Origin: Acetofilamentum sp.
Lineage (GTDB): Bacteria > Bacteroidota > Bacteroidia > Bacteroidales > JAADGE01
DNA: 33,753 nucleotides
NCBI GenBank assembly: GCA_020720665.1
Contig: DYOF01000016.1
Coordinates: 1-33,753, forward strand
Direction of reading: 5' to 3'
The notes beneath the pieces are model-generated. The model was given only the letters and a program-made list of their open reading frames with translations, was not told where the DNA came from and did not search any database. Shown here one piece after another: positions 3 to 30,663 of this stretch. Position numbers and translations under genes: made by a program. Position 1 is the first letter of the stretch, and the number at the start of each line of letters is the position of its first letter.

Positions 3-52
3 AAGCATTCAATTTGCAGATTATTAATTAATTATAAATTTTTAGACACATG
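3..52 (+). repeat. 3' end of the shared leader repeat, copy A, in front of the EF-G2-like gene
   Basis: These 50 bases match the 3' end of the repeat at 22779-22828 at 45 of 50 positions without gaps. They also match the inverted copy at 30467-30517 with one indel. The shared core is CAATTTGCA, an AT-rich stretch, then TTTTTAGACACATG, whose final ATG is the start codon of the downstream gene. The body of this copy lies outside the window. The conserved CAATTTG resembles the TAnnTTTG -7 promoter element of this phylum, so the tail may carry the transcription start; that is inference. Confidence 0.75.
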
Positions 53-2209
53 AAAGTATATAACACAGGAGATATAAGGAATATTGCTTTAGTAGGAAAT
101 GCAGGAAGCGGTAAAACTACCTTGGCTGAAAATTTCGCTCTTGAGGGAGGAAAAATTCAAAGAAAAGGAACAATTGATTCAAAATCAACCCTATCAGATT
201 ACAGACCGGTTGAGCATGTACAAGAAGGTTCGGTTTTTTCATCAATATTAAACAGCGAGTGGAACGGAGTTAAAATCAATATTTTAGATGCACCCGGAGC
301 ATTAGATTTTATAGGAGGTGCTGTTTCTTCAATAGCAATTGCCGATACAACACTTTTAGTTTTAAATGCTCAAAACGGAATTGAAGTAGGTGCCGAAATA
401 CACTGGAGATTAGCCGAAAAATTAAATAAACCTGTTGTTATCATTGCAAATCATTTAGATCACGATAAAACAAATTTTGAAAAAACAATAGATCTGGCAA
501 AAGAGCAGTTAGCTTCGTCCGTTACGATTGTTCAGTATCCCGTAAATCAAGGACCCGAATACAACTCAATGATTGACCTTATTACAATGAAAATGTATAA
601 ATGGTCAGCTGACGGAAGCAAACAAGAGGTATTGGACATTCCGGATTCAGAAAAAGAAAAAACCGATGAACTCAGGATGATTTTAATTGAGGCGGCAGCT
701 GAAAATGATGAAGCTTTAATGGAGAAATTCTTTGAAAATGATACACTTACCGAAGATGAAATGAGAGAAGGTATATTAAAAGGAATTTTAGGCAGAGGAA
801 TGTTCCCCGTATTATGTACATCAGCAAAAAATAATATGGGAACCAAACGTTTAATGGACTTTATAAAAAATGCACTACCCTCTCCTGCCGCAATGCCCGG
901 AATGAAAACAAAAGACGGAAAAGAAATAAAACCGGATGCATCCGGAACAAAATCACTCTTTGTTTTTAAAACCGGTGTTGAAGAACATTTAGGCGAAGTT
1001 AACTATTTTAAAGTGGTTTCGGGAGAAATTGCCGAAAGCGACGACTTAGTAATTGTATCAAACAAAAATAAAGAACGAATTTCTCAAATATTTGCCGTTA
1101 ACGGAAAAAACCGAGAAAGTTTACCCAAAATTGTTGCCGGAGATATCGGTGCAACCGTTAAATTAAAATACACAAAAAATGAAGATACATTAACAGAAAA
1201 AGGCAATGAAGATTGTATTGAATCAATTAAATATCCGAATCCGAAAATTCGCAAAGCAATACGAGCTTTAAGCGAATCAGACGAAGAGAAATTGGGCGAA
1301 TACCTGCATCGTTTGCATGATGAAGACCCGACCTATATTTTGGAATATTCAAAAGAACTGAAACAACTTATTCTTCACGGACAAGGAGAACATCATTTGA
1401 ATACCTTAAAATGGCACTTAGATAATACATTCAAAATTCCTACAGAATTTTTAGCTCCTAAAATTCCTTACAGAGAAACGATTACAAAAGCAGCACAATC
1501 CGATTTCAGACACAAAAAACAATCCGGCGGAGCCGGTCAATTCGGTGAAGTTCATATGATTATTGAACCACATGAAGAAGGAAAACCAAAACCGACTACT
1601 TATAAATTGAACGGTAAAGAATATACTGTTACCGTCAGAGACGAAGATGTAATTGAATTAAAATGGGGCGGTAAATTAGTTTTTTACAATTGTATTATCG
1701 GCGGTGTAATTGACAAAAACTATATGCCTGCAATTATTAAAGGACTTATGGAAAAAATGGAAAACGGACCCTTAACCGGAAGTTACGCCAGAGATATCCG
1801 AGTAAGTGTTTATGACGGAAAAATGCACGATGTTGACTCAAATGAAATATCATTTAAAATTGCGGGTTCAAAAGCGTTCTCAGCAGCGTTTAAACAAGCG
1901 GGTCCCAGAATTTTAGAACCTATTTATAATTTAGAAGTTATGGTTCCGTCTGACAGTATGGGTGACGTAATGAGCGACCTGCAAGGCAGAAGAGCAATTA
2001 TTCAAGGAATGAGCAGTGCTAAAGGTTTTGAAATTATCAATGCGAAAGTACCTTTAGCTGAGGTTTCAAAATATGCAACGGCTTTAAGCTCTATTTCGGG
2101 CGGAAGAGCAACTTTTGAATTAGAATTTGATGAATATGCCCCTGTTCCGGGTGATATTCAAAATGAACTGATAAAAGCTTACGAAGAAGAACAAGGTGAT
2201 GAAGATTAA
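50..2209 (+). CDS. EF-G paralogue (EF-G2-like translation factor, probably defective in GTP hydrolysis)
   Basis: At 719 aa this has full EF-G length and domain order: G domain, domain II, then domains III-V from about residue 400. The P-loop GNAGSGKTT (16-24) is intact. The other GTPase motifs are not: the catalytic His of DTPGHVDF is Ala in DAPGALDF (80-87), switch I RGIT is replaced (EGSV, about 59-62), and NKxD is NHLD (134-137). These changes match the Bacteroides EF-G2 described as supporting translation without GTP hydrolysis during carbon limitation. It should bind the ribosome in the cytosol and act in translocation. The ATG at 50 ends the shared leader repeat, and a terminator follows at 2233. 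The canonical fusA is presumably elsewhere. The family call is firm; the loss of GTPase activity is inferred from motifs. Confidence 0.9.
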   Translation: MKVYNTGDIRNIALVGNAGSGKTTLAENFALEGGKIQRKGTIDSKSTLSDYRPVEHVQEGSVFSSILNSEWNGVKINILDAPGALDFIGGAVSSIAIADTTLLVLNAQNGIEVGAEIHWRLAEKLNKPVVIIANHLDHDKTNFEKTIDLAKEQLASSVTIVQYPVNQGPEYNSMIDLITMKMYKWSADGSKQEVLDIPDSEKEKTDELRMILIEAAAENDEALMEKFFENDTLTEDEMREGILKGILGRGMFPVLCTSAKNNMGTKRLMDFIKNALPSPAAMPGMKTKDGKEIKPDASGTKSLFVFKTGVEEHLGEVNYFKVVSGEIAESDDLVIVSNKNKERISQIFAVNGKNRESLPKIVAGDIGATVKLKYTKNEDTLTEKGNEDCIESIKYPNPKIRKAIRALSESDEEKLGEYLHRLHDEDPTYILEYSKELKQLILHGQGEHHLNTLKWHLDNTFKIPTEFLAPKIPYRETITKAAQSDFRHKKQSGGAGQFGEVHMIIEPHEEGKPKPTTYKLNGKEYTVTVRDEDVIELKWGGKLVFYNCIIGGVIDKNYMPAIIKGLMEKMENGPLTGSYARDIRVSVYDGKMHDVDSNEISFKIAGSKAFSAAFKQAGPRILEPIYNLEVMVPSDSMGDVMSDLQGRRAIIQGMSSAKGFEIINAKVPLAEVSKYATALSSISGGRATFELEFDEYAPVPGDIQNELIKAYEEEQGDED

Positions 2210-3454: not shown

Positions 3455-3928
3455 TTATTGTAAATACATTTTTTGAAGATTAACTTCATCATCAAAAAAC
3501 ATTTCGGCTAAGGTTTTAAAAAAATCGGTATAATCTGAAACATAAAATTCATGTTTGGGAGAGGTTTCGCTTGTATTTAACAAATTATTTTCACTTAAAA
3601 TTTCTTTTAATTTTTGTGCAACAACTACAGATGAGTCAATAATATTTGTTTTGAAGTTGTAAAATTTGCGGATTTGATTTTTAATGATAGGGTAATGTGT
3701 ACATGCCGGAATTAAGCCGTCAATTCCTTGTAAAGTTTCATCAGATAAATATTCTTTAATAATTGCATTACTGATGTTATCGTAGATAAAACCCTCTTCA
3801 ATCATAGGAACCAACATCGGTGTTGCTAATGAAACAATTTCTTTATCCGGTGCAATTGCATTTATTTTTGTCGTGTAAGTATTACTTTTAATTGTTCCTT
3901 TTGTTCCGATAACACCAATTTTTTTCAA
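3455..3928 (-). pseudogene. murI 3' remnant (duplicated C-terminal half of glutamate racemase)
   Basis: The 157 codons are identical to residues 115-271 of the intact murI at 6147-6962. It keeps the second catalytic Cys (in ACTHYP) but lacks the N-terminal half with the other catalytic Cys and the Asp-Ser motif, so it cannot be an active racemase. The only in-frame start is an internal TTG that overlaps the stop codon of the preceding module gene (TTGA). This looks accidental, because the stop itself is supplied by murI sequence. I read it as the by-product of a long target duplication. Confidence 0.9.
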
Positions 3929-6146: not shown

Positions 6147-6624
6147 TTATTGTAAATACATTTTTTGAAGATTAACTTCATCATCAAAAAACATTTCGGC
6201 TAAGGTTTTAAAAAAATCGGTATAATCTGAAACATAAAATTCATGTTTGGGAGAGGTTTCGCTTGTATTTAACAAATTATTTTCACTTAAAATTTCTTTT
6301 AATTTTTGTGCAACAACTACAGATGAGTCAATAATATTTGTTTTGAAGTTGTAAAATTTGCGGATTTGATTTTTAATGATAGGGTAATGTGTACATGCCG
6401 GAATTAAGCCGTCAATTCCTTGTAAAGTTTCATCAGATAAATATTCTTTAATAATTGCATTACTGATGTTATCGTAGATAAAACCCTCTTCAATCATAGG
6501 AACCAACATCGGTGTTGCTAATGAAACAATTTCTTTATCCGGTGCAATTGCATTTATTTTTGTCGTGTAAGTATTACTTTTAATTGTTCCTTTTGTTCCG
6601 ATAACACCAATTTTTTTCAAATTT
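6147..6624. repeat. 478-bp perfect direct repeat, right copy (3' half of intact murI)
   Basis: This is identical to 3455-3932. It covers codons 115-271 and the stop of intact murI plus a few bases into the preceding codons. Recombination between the copies would remove a 2692-bp unit and leave a normal murI. Confidence 0.97.
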
Positions 6625-17416: not shown

Positions 17417-18586
17417 ATGTTAAACATAGCTCTTTTCGGACCGCCCGGAGTCGGTAAAGGAACTCAATCCGAATTTTTAGTAAAAAAATATAATTTATTT
17501 TATATTTCAACAGGAGATTTATTAAGAAAAGAAATTAAAGCAGAAACAAAATTGGGAACTGACGCTAAAACTATAATTGCTGAAGGCGGTTTAGTTTCTG
17601 ATGAAATTATTGTCCAAATTATTGAAAAAACCATCAAATCAAATTCAGAAGCAAATGGTTTTCTATTCGACGGCTTTCCGCGTACATATATACAAGCATA
17701 TATTTTAGAAGGACTAATGATAAAATTAGGTTCAAGTTTAGATTGTTTTATCAGTTTGGAAATTAAAGAAGAAGAATCGATTAAACGATTATTAAACAGA
17801 GGGATTACTTCCGGCAGAAGCGATGATAATGAACCGGTTATAAAAAAAAGATTAAAAGAATATAAGGAGAAAACATTACCGGTTCTAAACTTTTATAAAG
17901 AAAGACAAAATTATATTTCAGTAAACGGCTTACAAAATATAAAAAAAGTTTCTGAAGATATTGAACGAATTATAAATGAACGATTGAGTAAAAAACTCCT
18001 GAACATTGTTATGTTTGGTTATCCGGGTTCCGGAAGAGGTTCTTTAAGTAAAGCACTTTCTGAAAAATATCAATTGGAGTTCGTAGCTACAGGTGCGATG
18101 CTTGATGATGAAATTAAGAAAAAAAGTGAAATAGGAAAAAAAATCGAATGTTTATACGAAAGCGGACAGTTAGTTCCTGATGAAATTGTTATTCCGTTAA
18201 TTGAGAAAAAGCTGCAGCAATCTAATAATGTCAGAGGATTTATTTTTAAAGGCTTTCCTCGAACATTGGTACAGTCATATATTTTAGACGGGTTATTGAA
18301 AAAATACGATTCATATATTGCAAAAATTTTTGATATAAAGGTTGATACCTTAGAACTCATAAAACGGCTCGATAAAAGAAGCAAAACTGACTCAAAAATG
18401 CCTTATGACAGCAGTACAGAAAAAATTGTAAAACGATTGCAAGAACATGAAAATAAAACTATTCCTGTTATTGAAAAATATAAAGAAACACATGATGTTA
18501 TTACTATTGACGGAATGCCCTCGTTGAATTTAGTTTTGGAAAATATTTCAAAAGAAATTGAAAACAGCTTCAAAAATTTGAAATAA
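17417..18586 (+). CDS. adk: Tandem adenylate kinase: active domain fused to a degenerate second domain
   Basis: This 389-aa protein is about twice the usual length. Domain 1 (1-190) is a short-LID adenylate kinase with GPPGVGKGTQ (Lys14), TGDLLR, DGFPRT (85-90) and GRSDDNE, so it should convert ATP + AMP to 2 ADP. Domain 2 (about 195-389) has the same fold order but lost key residues: Walker A is GYPGSGRGS with Arg207 for the invariant Lys, TGDLLR has become TGAMLD, DGFPRT is KGFPRT, and the LID Arg motif is missing. Domain 2 may be regulatory or structural. The frame runs through both domains without a break. The hydrolase gene begins at the base after the stop. Confidence 0.9.
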   Translation: MLNIALFGPPGVGKGTQSEFLVKKYNLFYISTGDLLRKEIKAETKLGTDAKTIIAEGGLVSDEIIVQIIEKTIKSNSEANGFLFDGFPRTYIQAYILEGLMIKLGSSLDCFISLEIKEEESIKRLLNRGITSGRSDDNEPVIKKRLKEYKEKTLPVLNFYKERQNYISVNGLQNIKKVSEDIERIINERLSKKLLNIVMFGYPGSGRGSLSKALSEKYQLEFVATGAMLDDEIKKKSEIGKKIECLYESGQLVPDEIVIPLIEKKLQQSNNVRGFIFKGFPRTLVQSYILDGLLKKYDSYIAKIFDIKVDTLELIKRLDKRSKTDSKMPYDSSTEKIVKRLQEHENKTIPVIEKYKETHDVITIDGMPSLNLVLENISKEIENSFKNLK

Positions 18587-22456: not shown

Positions 22457-22825
22457 TCAAATTAAGTTTTAAATTTTCACAAATATAATGAATGTTTTAC
22501 GGAAATAAAAACTTGAAATACGATTTGCATTCAATTTCTTTAATGAAAATTTTGATTATTAATAATTCAGACAAAAACTTTTCACGAATTGTTATATATT
22601 TGAATTTTCATAATTATAAAATTAAAAGTAATGAAACACCCGGGTAGAACCCTGAAAGGCTCAGCGAAGCTAAACAATTTTTCACACACAGGAGCATGAT
22701 TGACAGAAGATATTATTTAATGCTGATTTATGAAGGTGTTCCTAAGTGCAGAGAAAAATAAACAAAATAAATAAATAGAAACATTCAATTTGCATATTAT
22801 TAATTACTTACAAACTTTTAGACAC
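22457..22825. other. Divergent intergenic region between apeB and the S46 peptidase gene
   Basis: This is 369 bp without a gene. The left part holds the apeB promoter element. From about 22500 to 22630 it is featureless AT-rich DNA. The right 195 bp are shared leader repeat copy B. Confidence 0.7.
22480..22487 (-). promoter_or_regulatory. Candidate -7 element of apeB
   Basis: The minus strand reads TATATTTG, a full TAnnTTTG match, 23 bases before the ATG at 22456. Confidence 0.5.
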
Positions 22826-22828
22826 ATG
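22631..22828 (+). repeat. Shared leader repeat, copy B, in front of the S46 peptidase gene
   Basis: The body (22631-22757) matches copy C (30541-30663, reversed) at roughly four of five positions by eye. Conserved blocks include GAACCCTGAAA, TCAGCGAAGCTAAA, AGGAGCATGATT, ACAGAAGATATT and GAAGGTGTTCCTA. The tail (22779-22828) is shared with copies A and C and ends in TTTTAGACACATG at the gene's start codon. AACACC (22635-22640) is complementary to GGTGTT (22735-22740), so the body could be closed by a stem. AGC-GAA-GCT forms a small inner hairpin. The result could be a structured RNA leader or a small mobile repeat. Confidence 0.8.
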
Positions 22829-24994
22829 ATTAAAATAACTTCAATTCTATTTACATTTTTAATGCTTATTGTTCATCAGGTTAAAGCCGATGAAGGAATG
22901 TGGATTCCCTTGTTTTTGAAGAAATATAATATTGAAGAAATGCAAAAAAAGGGGTTTAAACTTACTGCCGAAGATATATACAGTATAAACCAAGCCAGTA
23001 TGAAAGATGCTGTAATGATTTTTGGCGGAGGTTGTACGGCTGAATTAATTTCGGACAACGGTTTAATTTTAACTAATCATCATTGCGGTTTCAGCAGTAT
23101 TCAATCACACAGTTCTTTAGAACACGATTATTTGACAGACGGTTTTTGGGCAATGAACCGAAACGAAGAGCTGCCAAATGAAAAATTAACAGTTACATTT
23201 TTAGTAAAAATGGAAGATGTAACCGAAACAGTTTTAAACGGTGTTTCTGATGATATTGATGAATCAGACAGAGAAATTTTAATTGAAAAGAATATTGAAA
23301 AAATAAAAGCAATCGCTTCCGAAGGAAATGATTATAAAGTTGTTGTAAAACCATTTTTTTACGGTAATCAGTATTTTCTATTTGTTCAAAAAGTTTATAA
23401 AGATGTCCGTTTAGTAGGTGCACCGCCTTCATCTATCGGTAAATTCGGAGGAGATACTGATAATTGGATGTGGCCCAGACACACCGGCGATTTTTCATTA
23501 TTCAGAATTTATGCCGATAAAAATAATGAACCTGCTGAATATTCAGAAGATAATGTCCCGTATAAACCCTTAAAGCATTTTCCGATATCGGTAAAGGGAG
23601 TAAAAAAGGGCGATTTTACTATGGTATTCGGGTATCCCGGAAGCACCGAAGAATATTTAACTTCTTATGCCGTAGATATGATTCAAAATAAAATTAATCC
23701 GCACCGAATTAATATTAGAAAAAATATAATTGACATTTTGAGCTCAGATATGAACAGTAATCCTCAAATTCGGATACAATATGCTTCAAAATATGCAGGA
23801 ATAGCCAATTATTGGAAAAAATGGATGGGCGAAAACAGAGGTTTGGAAATACTAAATGCCGTTGAACGCAAAAAAAATAATGAAATTGAATTGGAAAAAT
23901 GGATTAATTCCGACAAAAACAGATCGGCAAAATACGGAAATCTTTTACCGGAATTTAAAGATTTATATGAAAAATATACACCTTATTTTCTTGCCGAAGA
24001 ATATTTTTATGAAGCAATTTGGCGAATGGAGTCTATGCGTTTCGGAGCAAGGATTGCAAGCTTTGTTAAAACAGGCGATAAAATTTCTAAAACCGATATT
24101 GAAAAGTTAAAGCTATTTGCAGATAATTTTTATAAAGACTATAATATTAATACAGATAAAAAATTATTCAGTTCGTTATTGAAACTCTATATAAACAATG
24201 TTGATTCGCAATTTCAACCCGAAATTTTAAATGCATTTTCAATTTTAAATCATTTTAACTTTTCAAATGATGAAATTGTTGATTTATATGCAGATTATTA
24301 TTTTAACAAAACATTTTGGCTGAAAGAAAAAGAATTTAATGATTTTATTGAAAAATATTCATACGGAAGCGAAGATTTACTTAAAATAACAGAAACACCC
24401 GGCTATAATTTTTATTACGATTTTGTTAATGTTTATTACACGAAAATTAAACCTTTTTCTGAAAAATATGCAACTCAAATTGACCAAAAGAGCCGTCTTT
24501 ATATGAAACTGTTAATGGAAGCTGATACTTCAAAAATCTTTTATCCTGATGCAAATTCAACATTAAGAATTGCATACGGGCAAGTGGATACATACGAACC
24601 GAGAGACGGAGTTAAGTATCAATATTACACAACTTTAAGCGGAGTTATGGAAAAAGATAATCCCGAAATTTATGACTATGATGTTCCTGTTCGACTAAGG
24701 GAATTGTATAAGCAAAAAGATTTCGGTACTTATGCCGAAAACGGTGAAATGCATGTTTGTTTTATTGCCTCAAATCACACAACAGGAGGCAATTCCGGTA
24801 GTCCTGTTATAAATGCTGACGGAGAATTAATAGGTGTTAATTTTGACAGAAACTGGGAAGGCACCATGAGCGACATTATGTACAATCCTGATCAATGCAG
24901 AAATATTACTTTGGATATTCGTTACGTATTGTTTCTTATTGATAAATTTGCGGGTGCAACTCATTTAATTGAGGAAATGACAATTGTTAAATAA
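22826..24994 (+). CDS. S46 family dipeptidyl-peptidase (DPP7/DPP11-like)
   Basis: This 722-aa exported serine peptidase removes dipeptides from peptide N termini, a nutrient-acquisition activity of this phylum. The ATG at 22826 is chosen because a signal peptide begins there (MIKITSILF to about HQVKA, then ADEGMW). An upstream TTG would add 12 residues encoded by the leader repeat. The catalytic His86 is in TNHHCG and the Ser near 657 is in GGNSGSPV, followed by NFDRNWEGTMSD, which looks more DPP7-like than DPP11-like. It likely acts in the periplasm. Specificity needs the S1-pocket residues, which I cannot assign confidently. Confidence 0.92.
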   Translation: MIKITSILFTFLMLIVHQVKADEGMWIPLFLKKYNIEEMQKKGFKLTAEDIYSINQASMKDAVMIFGGGCTAELISDNGLILTNHHCGFSSIQSHSSLEHDYLTDGFWAMNRNEELPNEKLTVTFLVKMEDVTETVLNGVSDDIDESDREILIEKNIEKIKAIASEGNDYKVVVKPFFYGNQYFLFVQKVYKDVRLVGAPPSSIGKFGGDTDNWMWPRHTGDFSLFRIYADKNNEPAEYSEDNVPYKPLKHFPISVKGVKKGDFTMVFGYPGSTEEYLTSYAVDMIQNKINPHRINIRKNIIDILSSDMNSNPQIRIQYASKYAGIANYWKKWMGENRGLEILNAVERKKNNEIELEKWINSDKNRSAKYGNLLPEFKDLYEKYTPYFLAEEYFYEAIWRMESMRFGARIASFVKTGDKISKTDIEKLKLFADNFYKDYNINTDKKLFSSLLKLYINNVDSQFQPEILNAFSILNHFNFSNDEIVDLYADYYFNKTFWLKEKEFNDFIEKYSYGSEDLLKITETPGYNFYYDFVNVYYTKIKPFSEKYATQIDQKSRLYMKLLMEADTSKIFYPDANSTLRIAYGQVDTYEPRDGVKYQYYTTLSGVMEKDNPEIYDYDVPVRLRELYKQKDFGTYAENGEMHVCFIASNHTTGGNSGSPVINADGELIGVNFDRNWEGTMSDIMYNPDQCRNITLDIRYVLFLIDKFAGATHLIEEMTIVK

Positions 24995-28166: not shown

Positions 28167-29202
28167 TGAAATATAAACCGGTTTCCAATAATTCTTTTAA
28201 TTTATTTACTTGCGGAACTGTTCCGAGAACGAATAATTTATCTTCCTTTTTTAGTTTAATATTTCCGCTCGGATTGAATACATAAGATCCGTTTTCTTGT
28301 TTAAGACCGATGATATTTGCACCGGTTTTTTTTCTGATATCCAAATCTGAAATTGTACTGTTGACAAAGCAAGATGCTAAATCGTCGCAAGATATTTCTT
28401 CTAAATTAACATCTACACCTTCTCTGAGCATAATCATTTCTAAAAATTCAATGATATCAGGTTCACTTACTAATTTTGCCATTCTTGAACCGCCTACAAT
28501 ATCAGGCATTAAAATATTATCTGCACCGGCACGTTTTAATTTTGAAAACATGTTTTCATCCGAAGCCCTTGATATAATTCTCATTCGTGTATTAAAATCT
28601 CTGGCGGAAAGGACTAATAATAAGTTATCTGCATCATTCGGAAGGGTAGTAATTAATGCCTTGGCTTTGTCCGTGTTAACTTTTTGCAGGGTTTCTTCAT
28701 GAGAAGCATCACCGGCAATGAACGTAACATTTTTATTCATAAGAAAACCTTCATTGATATCTTCATTCATAATATTAGGCGAATTGTCAATAACTACAAT
28801 CGTTTCATTCAATTTTAATAATTCTATGGCAGCTTGTCTTCCGTTACGACCAAAACCGCAAATTATAATGTGATTTTCCAATTTTTTAAGTTTTTTATTT
28901 TTATAAAATGTTTGAGCCAATTTTCGATATTCTCCGTCAATAAAAACACGTGTAACGGAAGTTAAAAAATAACCGAAAATACCGATACTGAAAATTATTA
29001 ACAAGCTTGTAAATATCATTCCGCCGTCCGATAATGTATGAACTTCTTCAAACCCGACAGTTGAGACGGTAATTATTGTCATATACACGGCTTCAACAAG
29101 CGTATAATTTTCAATAAAAATAAATCCGATTGTTCCGCTTATCATAATGATAATCAGTGCAACAGATGCAATATATATATTTTTGAATTCTTTAAGCATC
29201 AT
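28156..29202 (-). CDS. Two-helix potassium channel with cytosolic TrkA (RCK) domains
   Basis: This 348-aa MthK-like channel subunit has TM1 at about 9-29, a pore loop with filter TVSTVGFE (45-52), and TM2 at about 62-84. A TrkA-N domain follows with the nucleotide-binding GFGRNG (116-121) and D/N residues at the end of its second strand, then a TrkA-C domain to residue 348. It should conduct K+ across the inner membrane under nucleotide or ion control of the RCK ring. The filter's last residue is Glu rather than Asp or Gly of common channels. It overlaps its neighbours by 11 bp on both sides. Confidence 0.88.
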   Translation of the reverse strand: MMLKEFKNIYIASVALIIIMISGTIGFIFIENYTLVEAVYMTIITVSTVGFEEVHTLSDGGMIFTSLLIIFSIGIFGYFLTSVTRVFIDGEYRKLAQTFYKNKKLKKLENHIIICGFGRNGRQAAIELLKLNETIVVIDNSPNIMNEDINEGFLMNKNVTFIAGDASHEETLQKVNTDKAKALITTLPNDADNLLLVLSARDFNTRMRIISRASDENMFSKLKRAGADNILMPDIVGGSRMAKLVSEPDIIEFLEMIMLREGVDVNLEEISCDDLASCFVNSTISDLDIRKKTGANIIGLKQENGSYVFNPSGNIKLKKEDKLFVLGTVPQVNKLKELLETGLYFNEK

Positions 29203-30469
29203 CTCGGTTTAGGTATAAATGCCCTATTCTGCAATCAATACATTTGCGTTTCATACAATATTCATTGTATAATTGCATTAAGGATTGTGAAAAATAAGCA
29301 TTTTTAATATTTATACCTAATGTAGTCCATTTTTTTAATATATGATTGTTTTCGGCTTTAATATCTTCAAATAAATTTAAAGCACGTTCTTTAATTATTG
29401 AATTGCCTTTTTCGTTTCCGTATAAAAATAAAATCGGCAAAACTGTATTTATTAAAAGATTATCAATTGCTGATTTTCCGAAGTTTTTAATTTTAAAATT
29501 ACTTTTTTCTCCGAATGTGTAGTGATTATTCCAATATTCAGATGCTTTGATTTCAAAAAATTGATAAAATTCTTTAATGTTTTCAATTTCAATTATTTTA
29601 GAAAATAAATGAGACGATTTATAAGTAAGCCGTGCAAATTGAGATAAACGAATTGTAGGAAAATTAACAGGTCGAATTCTTAAAAACTTCCATAGAGAGG
29701 AATCAATGGGTTTTAATAGATATTTTGATGATAAAAATTTATATTCTTGTTTTAATGAATTATAGTATTCATCATCAATATTTTCGTTTGATAAAAATCC
29801 GGCTTGTCCGAATAATAATGCTTCAAGTTGGTATAACTGAGTTTTATTTTTGGCAAGGATTAATGATGGTAATGATTTTGCAGTTAATTCAAAAGGTAAG
29901 CTATTTGTTTTAAAACCGAATGCATTAGCCAAACTGATGTAAAACGTTTCTTCCCAATTGTTATTTGTAAAATGCAATATTGTTTTAAGATATTCGGTTT
30001 TTTGTTCTATACGTTCTGTTATAAGTCTTGTAAGCCATGAATTTATAATAAAATCATCCTGTTTATTAATAAAGTTACCGCATGCAATATTATTTTCAGA
30101 AAGAAGTAATTCATTATATTTTTTCAATAAAACCGGCTTAAACTTTAATTTTACGGTTAACAATTTTTGGTTCTTAGAATTAAAAACATCTGTATCATGT
30201 TCATAAACAACATGTAAAATAACATTGTCGTATGCTTTATTTCTATGATGGGAATGCTTATTCCAATCGGAAGATTTAAGATGAATTTCAATATTCCCTG
30301 CCCAAATTGTGTGTTCGTATTTTATTTTAGCATTAAAAAAGTCGGGTCCGGCATCATTATTTTTTTGTCCGACATCAATTATTTCAATTTCATTACCGTT
30401 TTCATCCGATAATGAATGTTCTGAAAATAAACGGTTTGCCCAAATATAATGTAAAAAATTCTCTTTCAT
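29192..30469 (-). CDS. DUF2851 family protein
   Basis: This 425-aa protein of unknown function is typical of Bacteroidota. The start ATG at 30469 is chosen because MKENFLHYIWANRLF is the usual family N terminus; an upstream frame would only translate the leader repeat. The N-terminal half contains EIIDVGQKNNDAGPDFFNAKI and a strand-rich region with HLKSSDWNKHSHH, which may hint at a nucleic-acid or nuclease-like fold. The C terminus has a CxxC-like KRKCIDCRIG. It leads the operon with the channel gene and miaA, and the shared leader repeat sits directly upstream. Confidence 0.8.
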   Translation of the reverse strand: MKENFLHYIWANRLFSEHSLSDENGNEIEIIDVGQKNNDAGPDFFNAKIKYEHTIWAGNIEIHLKSSDWNKHSHHRNKAYDNVILHVVYEHDTDVFNSKNQKLLTVKLKFKPVLLKKYNELLLSENNIACGNFINKQDDFIINSWLTRLITERIEQKTEYLKTILHFTNNNWEETFYISLANAFGFKTNSLPFELTAKSLPSLILAKNKTQLYQLEALLFGQAGFLSNENIDDEYYNSLKQEYKFLSSKYLLKPIDSSLWKFLRIRPVNFPTIRLSQFARLTYKSSHLFSKIIEIENIKEFYQFFEIKASEYWNNHYTFGEKSNFKIKNFGKSAIDNLLINTVLPILFLYGNEKGNSIIKERALNLFEDIKAENNHILKKWTTLGINIKNAYFSQSLMQLYNEYCMKRKCIDCRIGHLYLNRDDA

Positions 30470-30663
30470 GTGTCTAAAAATTTGCAATTTATGAAAAATA
30501 TGCAAATTGTTATGCTTGTCGATATTTGTTAAACTTGTTTCTCTCTGCACATAGGAACACCTTCATCAATTTGCAAGGAATAAATATCTTCTGTTAATCA
30601 TGCTCCTTTGTGTGAAAATCTTTTAGCTTCGCTGAACATTTCAGGGTTCTCATGGGTGTTCAT
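30467..30663 (-). repeat. Shared leader repeat, copy C, in front of the DUF2851 gene
   Basis: Read on the minus strand, this copy begins with ATGAACACCC at the base after the stop codon of the STAS-like gene and ends in TTTTTAGACACATG, the DUF2851 start codon. It fills the whole intergenic region. GAACACC at its 5' end (read as GGTGTTC on + at 30655-30661) is complementary to GGTGTTC at its body's 3' end (+ 30555-30561), a 7-bp closing stem. It is inverted relative to copies A and B but in the same sense as its own downstream gene. Confidence 0.8.

Follow-up and report, generated by a model that had tools for sequence, protein, structure and literature searches.

A probable non-autonomous mobile element of about 170 nt located at gene start codons in an Acetofilamentum genome

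A short repeat found in three copies (A, B and C) in a 33,753-nt stretch of Acetofilamentum sp. DNA (contig DYOF01000016.1, assembly GCA_020720665.1; hereafter the window) is mobile DNA about 170 nt long, probably a non-autonomous element that is moved in trans and is similar to the palindrome-associated transposable elements (PATEs). The window is the whole of contig C81 in a 2.6-Mb genome of 237 contigs, labelled G000; its genes (peptidase S46, DUF2851) resemble those of a Bacteroidota member. Copies of the element are found at the start codons of unrelated genes, and three insertions present in one related genome (G003) are missing from another (G004).

The initial annotation had ended the repeat body at 22757, but copies also share the ~70 nt that follow, as far as the start codon at 22826. 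The layout of aligned copies is native 5' untranslated region (UTR) - ATGAA - ACACCC ... TTTAGACAS - ATGAA - coding sequence, the element itself beginning with AACACCC and ending with TAGACAS (terminus TAGACASATGAA). Its length is typically ~170 nt (173-176 nt when counted from the left to the right ATGA), and 190 nt in copies B and C. Of 81 G000 copies that could be delimited, 68 have ATGAA at the 5' junction. The element has neither coding capacity nor terminal inverted repeats; small open reading frames (ORFs) within it (MKHPGKTIFYTQEYD... and MTNRRYYLMQIYKGVP...) were rejected because 1-nt indels change the frame between copies.

A similarity search of the G000 contigs gave 68 matching pieces and many further candidates. 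In pattern counts, G000 had 127 sites for the internal block GTGTTCCTATSTGC and 192 for the 3' terminus TWWAGACASATGA, with the reversed control giving 7 and 14, respectively. The G000 analysis was made on stretches around the copies, covering most of these pattern sites, and a profile placed 115 copies there; altogether, G000 carries about 120-180 copies. Some form tandem arrays, in which 18 copies are upstream members. Tandem neighbours can have identical 3' halves and differing 5' or central parts (C138:10006-10336, C144:22759-23102, C151:3232-3577 and C199:51990-52336), which suggests chimeric insertion or conversion. The variant with the 25-nt insert, represented by copies B and C, is rare. 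The 25-nt module, (CC)..AAAGGCTCAGCGAAGCTAA, occupies different positions of the element in two species (window 22647-22671; G003 loci L239, L259 and L283), which gives it the look of a tiny repeat inserted in its own right. In one copy of another genome (L126, G008 C9) a 20-nt palindrome, CTGCCTGCCGGCAAGGCAGG, splits the internal block between GTGTTCC and CTATGTG.

When the right-hand ends were analyzed, an ORF opened at the restored ATG in at least 76 of about 85 scorable non-tandem G000 copies; a start was scored when the ORF had at least 50 codons from this ATG or reached the end of the stretch. Thirteen copies were scored as 'other'. Three or four of these reflect a mis-located terminus, a gap or the end of a contig; in most of the others ATGA is mutated or the ORF begins slightly (a few bases) further on. 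In the relatives, 33 of 40 delimited copies were likewise at an ORF start. The base following ATGA was A in 64 of 66 and in 21 of 21 cases, so the target is effectively ATGAA. All copies lie in sense orientation, which follows from how the reading was built, from guide to terminus to ORF. The genes behind the copies are unrelated and include those for phosphofructokinase, LptC, Skp/OmpH, an EF-G-like protein and lipoproteins.

Counted over the window, ATGAA is present at 11 start codons, at 11 other intergenic positions (including the left flank of copy C) and at 193 positions within ORFs. If insertions merely avoided ORFs, about half of the copies would thus be expected elsewhere than at starts. 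The placement actually seen has a binomial p <1e-13 against these counts, and it exceeds what tolerance alone predicts. For at least 21 copies, copy C included, 30 nt or fewer separate the start from the stop codon of the previous gene. Promoter regions as such are therefore not the target, and targeting of promoter bubbles is weakened as an explanation. Either the element actively chooses start codons, or insertions there have been kept by selection. At L266 and L240 (G003, G004), reading from the start behind the element gives MKKQ-stop owing to a run of A, the real frame being 2 nt off; the gene is possibly slippage-dependent or decayed.

For evidence of mobility, the flanks of G003 insertions were joined and searched in G004. 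Three insertions were missing in G004 (L277/L285, L271/L286 and L265/L288), with joined flanks 91-97% identical. The empty sites hold a single ATGAA, whereas occupied sites have ATGAA on both sides of the element. These three sites demonstrate real and recent mobility. At other G003 loci the element was present in both genomes, in which about 65 (G003) and 39 (G004) copies were detected. Two loci, L290 and L293, are decayed in G004: the body is partly deleted and TTAGA(C/T)ACATGA is retained before the start codon. Likewise, several G000 genes (L071, L074 and L080) retain just the last ~30 nt. Related elements, 66-76% identical, are found in five genomes of the same genus, again at start codons. 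Skp/OmpH-like and LptC-like genes carry a start-codon element in two distant species (G000 C44:26395 and G003 L239; G000 C126:3239 and G003 L275), and in the Skp/OmpH-like case a relic lies upstream of a newer copy. No copy was found in the plasmids and viral contigs searched, and phages gave just a 25-nt match, taken as chance; a pattern scan of named genomes gave, two contigs aside, single 17-mer matches, taken as chance without a case-by-case check.

Thus, of the two possibilities raised in the initial annotation, a small non-autonomous mobile element is well supported by many dispersed copies, tandem copies, the three empty sites and a short duplicated target. The terminal inverted repeats assumed for it do not exist in that form: GGTGTT lies inside the element, with ~85 nt between it and the 3' end, and the actual termini, AACACCC... 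and ...TAGACAS, do not form an inverted repeat. ATGAA on both sides and a single ATGAA in empty sites would fit a target-site duplication, but the constant motif may also consist of target plus element end.

The other possibility, a structured RNA closed by a 7-bp stem, fared less well. The described pairings do exist, AACACC with GGTGTT in copy B and GAACACC with GGTGTTC in copy C (minus strand, ~30661-30555), as do the AGC-GAA-GCT hairpin and the GAaCC...GGcUC (B) or GAAC...GUUC (C) stem. The compensating change seen in the latter is, however, not a feature of the family, both inner stems being located in the 25-nt insert that most copies lack. The closing stem is conserved but without covariation: over 114 copies from six species, 91.5% of its cells were paired compared to 90.9% after shuffling, and in the other species most copies have lost its sixth pair. 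Rfam gave no match for the element, neither to an RNA family nor to a ribozyme family. Covariation across several helices was not found, only one covarying pair in one helix. This helix, the only one returned by RNAalifold on the G000 copies, joins the internal TATSTG with CASATG at the 3' end, start codon included; it is fully paired in 59 of 79 copies, against a mean of 35 and a maximum of 47 in 2000 shuffles. Copy B has one mismatch here, where most copies read TATSTG. If joined, the two ends of the element would form the junction CASATG-AAACAC, whose reverse complement is nearly matched by the longer internal sequence GTGTT-CC-TATSTG. Binding of a shared protein at both sites would also keep TATSTG and CASATG alike, and the pairing is therefore a candidate.

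We suggest that the element inserts beside ATGAA pentamers, which in practice means gene start codons, and that it always points into the gene. The gene's own 5' UTR and ATGAA remain, followed by the element, whose 3' end restores ATG(AA) before the coding sequence; hence the gene survives with a 5' leader ~170 nt longer. An element can receive another in its own ATGAA, producing tandem arrays. Movement in trans would most likely proceed by a single-strand reaction (HUH/IS200-IS605-like, PATE-type) or a similar site-specific one. The internal GTGTT-CC-TATSTG may pair with AACAC at the left and CASATG at the right end, drawing the ends together, and in a circular form the joined ends would read CASATGAAACACCC. 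Older copies appear to decay internally, and the 3' end would be kept because it now serves as the gene's translation-initiation region, possibly also as a promoter. A further-reaching idea is that translation start codons are actively targeted, the internal guide pairing with the element's two ends and the moving enzyme belonging to a novel class; this is tentative, and we consider it doubtful.

Searches for the mobilising enzyme were negative. The related full transposon considered in the initial annotation did not appear, as no transposase gene carrying the element's ends was found. The sole Y1 protein in G000 is a REP-associated tyrosine transposase (RAYT; REP, repetitive extragenic palindrome) fused to dapF, with its own, different REP, and no Y1 locus among those retrieved from the genus carries the element. 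RAYT was rejected as main mobiliser, its REP being a different sequence and the gene being missing from some carrier genomes. TnpB was detected in 0 of 14 genomes (IscB itself was not searched for), and IS110 transposase was not found in the high-copy genomes G000, G003 and G004. A multi-copy transposase may possibly have dropped out of the draft assembly. The fusion deserves mention in its own right: dapF (diaminopimelate epimerase) is joined in frame to a RAYT-like Y1 transposase domain in L101 370-1830 (G000 C114) and in L228 (G008 C26), 84% identical between the two species and with a REP-like palindrome at the joint, possibly a domesticated or in-frame inserted transposase.

The failure to find an enzyme weighs against a PATE-like element, and so do several other results. 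With ATGAA at both ends, a staggered-cut duplication is indistinguishable from single-strand insertion beside ATGAA. The subterminal stem at the left end was longer than in shuffled sequences (mean 4.6 vs 3.4, G000), but the right-end stem, where a PATE should form its 3' hairpin, was not (5.1 vs 5.2). The start-codon counts rest on loci found through the element, with ORFs called mechanically. In the TATSTG:CASATG helix double changes occur at one base pair only (G-C vs C-G, 25 copies). On a tree built without the pairing columns, S2 and S3 changed at least 9 and 15 times, respectively, and the co-changes went in the right direction (3.8 to 0.2 of 6 independent pairs) but fell short of significance, six pairs being too few.

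Two alternatives accept the element as DNA and explain its position by selection. A classical miniature inverted-repeat transposable element (MITE) would be moved by a DDE transposase with ATGAA as a 5-bp target-site duplication, copies away from start codons being removed by selection. This agrees with exactly one ATGAA in empty sites and two around the element, but it is unlikely in view of ends that are not inverted repeats, with GGTGTT far inside, and of a constant pentamer, most DDE duplications being variable. A mobile promoter cassette, with a promoter in the AT-rich 3' end and copies kept at start codons for raised expression, would fit the retention of the 3' 30-45 nt in decayed copies, and Correia elements and other MITEs do carry promoters (PMC10969869). 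However, no clear Bacteroidota -33/-7 motif is common to the species, the native promoter region stays upstream, and operon-internal copies need no promoter; this explanation, too, seems improbable.

Two further alternatives place the function in RNA. As a cis-regulatory leader, either a riboswitch or a switch sequestering the start codon, the repeat would have spread through useful regulation. Its constant position in the 5' leader in sense orientation and the start codon within the covarying helix are in line with this, and in G008 and G013 an upstream GCACATAG offers the guide another possible pairing partner. Nevertheless, we regard a regulatory leader as very unlikely: the genes are unrelated, Rfam is silent, copies occur in tandem, old copies drop the body yet keep the 3' end, and many copies, including B, break the helix. 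Excision from the transcript, or reverse splicing followed by reverse transcription into mRNA-sense sites, would account for the sense-only orientation, for an internal block pairing with both ends like a splicing guide, and for operon-internal sites. Against such an RNA-level element, no reverse transcriptase was found in G000, G003 and G004, although supply in trans from outside is still conceivable; moreover, no ribozyme family matched, 170 nt is very short, and sites inside ORFs are unused. We therefore consider it highly improbable, and a PATE-like DNA element remains the preferred explanation.

The features of the three copies in the window are collected in Table 1. TAnnTTTG is the -7 promoter motif of Bacteroidota, and the match upstream of copy B is probably the native promoter of the S46 gene, left in place when copy B inserted. 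Besides the element, the window contains a perfect 300-nt direct repeat (3455-3754 and 6147-6446, 2.7 kb apart, within two ORFs), which may be either a recent duplication or an assembly effect. In the ORF at 17417-18586, a stretch with a GFPRT-like motif occurs twice, the two versions being ~73% identical and 579 nt apart; this looks like a duplicated adenylate-kinase domain.

Table 1 Positions of element copies and adjoining features in the window
Feature	Positions	Strand	Basis
Copy B, left flank ATGAA, former start codon site	22631..22635	+	sequence read directly
Copy B, probable mobile element, 190 nt, long variant with 25-nt insert	22636..22825	+	sequence and copy comparison
Copy B, AACACC, pairs with 22735-22740 (GGTGTT)	22635..22640	+	conserved, no covariation
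Copy B, optional 25-nt insert GAACCCTGAAAGGCTCAGCGAAGCT, with two inner hairpins	22647..22671	+	missing in most copies
Copy B, internal guide-like block GGTGTT-CC-TAAGTG, well conserved	22735..22748	+	near complement of end junction CASATG-AACAC
Copy B, 3' terminus TTTAGACACATGA	22817..22829	+	terminus shared among copies
Copy B, CACATG, covarying partner of internal guide, includes start codon	22823-22828	+	
Gene behind copy B, dipeptidyl-peptidase family S46	22826..24994	+	PF10459, E 2e-236
TATATTTG, upstream of copy B, fits TAnnTTTG	22595..22602	+	motif match
Copy C, left flank ATGAA, immediately past TAA stop of preceding gene	30659..30663	-	
Copy C, probable mobile element, within operon-like gene pair	30470..30658	-	
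Copy C, right ATGAA, start codon of DUF2851 gene (29192-30469)	30465..30469	-	
Copy A, 3' part only, truncated by contig end	1..49	+	
Copy A, right ATGAA, start codon of EF-G-like GTPase gene (50-2209)	50..54	+	

Short bacterial repeats are known from intergenic regions, from tRNA genes and as in-frame segments of genes; in the openly accessible papers searched, we found no description of a repeat family with the start codon as its normal address. Several percent of the genes in the genome (about 80-180 gene starts) have had their 5' leaders rewritten by the element, with the proteins left intact, and several species of the genus have each undergone this separately. Active placement would imply an enzyme or guide recognising start codons in DNA; selective placement would make the copies a large natural experiment on permissible changes in 5' leaders. 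Many contigs end inside copies, which may explain why the G000 assembly is in 237 pieces.

Several known systems share part of these properties. IS110 elements encode a bridge RNA, and the ~170-nt non-coding unit, the guide-like block complementary to donor ends and the short core at both ends resemble that arrangement; however, both guide halves of our element would pair with the same strand, and the three high-copy genomes lack an IS110 transposase. REP elements moved by RAYT have in common the many copies and a possible trans mobilisation by one housekeeping-like transposase, but REPs are 20-40 bp hairpins, and the REP of the sole G000 RAYT is unlike the element. Promoter-bearing MITEs (Correia repeats, QMITE1, BrickBuilt; PMC10969869) are also short, non-coding, dispersed and near gene 5' ends, yet their ends are inverted repeats, their duplications mostly vary, and they are generally intergenic rather than exactly at the start codon. 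Rickettsia palindromic elements (RPEs), as far as they are described in PMC10969869, are of similar size (about 150 bp) and also have an exact relation to coding sequence; they lie in frame inside ORFs, whereas the start-codon element precedes the ORF without protein fusion. The closest resemblance is to the IS200/IS605-derived PATEs of Haloquadratum. Placement at start codons is not described for them in the accessible text of PMC3119063, and compared to that account our element does not clearly show subterminal palindromes (the 3' end is no better than shuffled) and no cognate IS200/IS605 element was found. Common to both, within the same account, are the lack of terminal inverted repeats and of coding capacity, a high copy number and a fixed short target motif.
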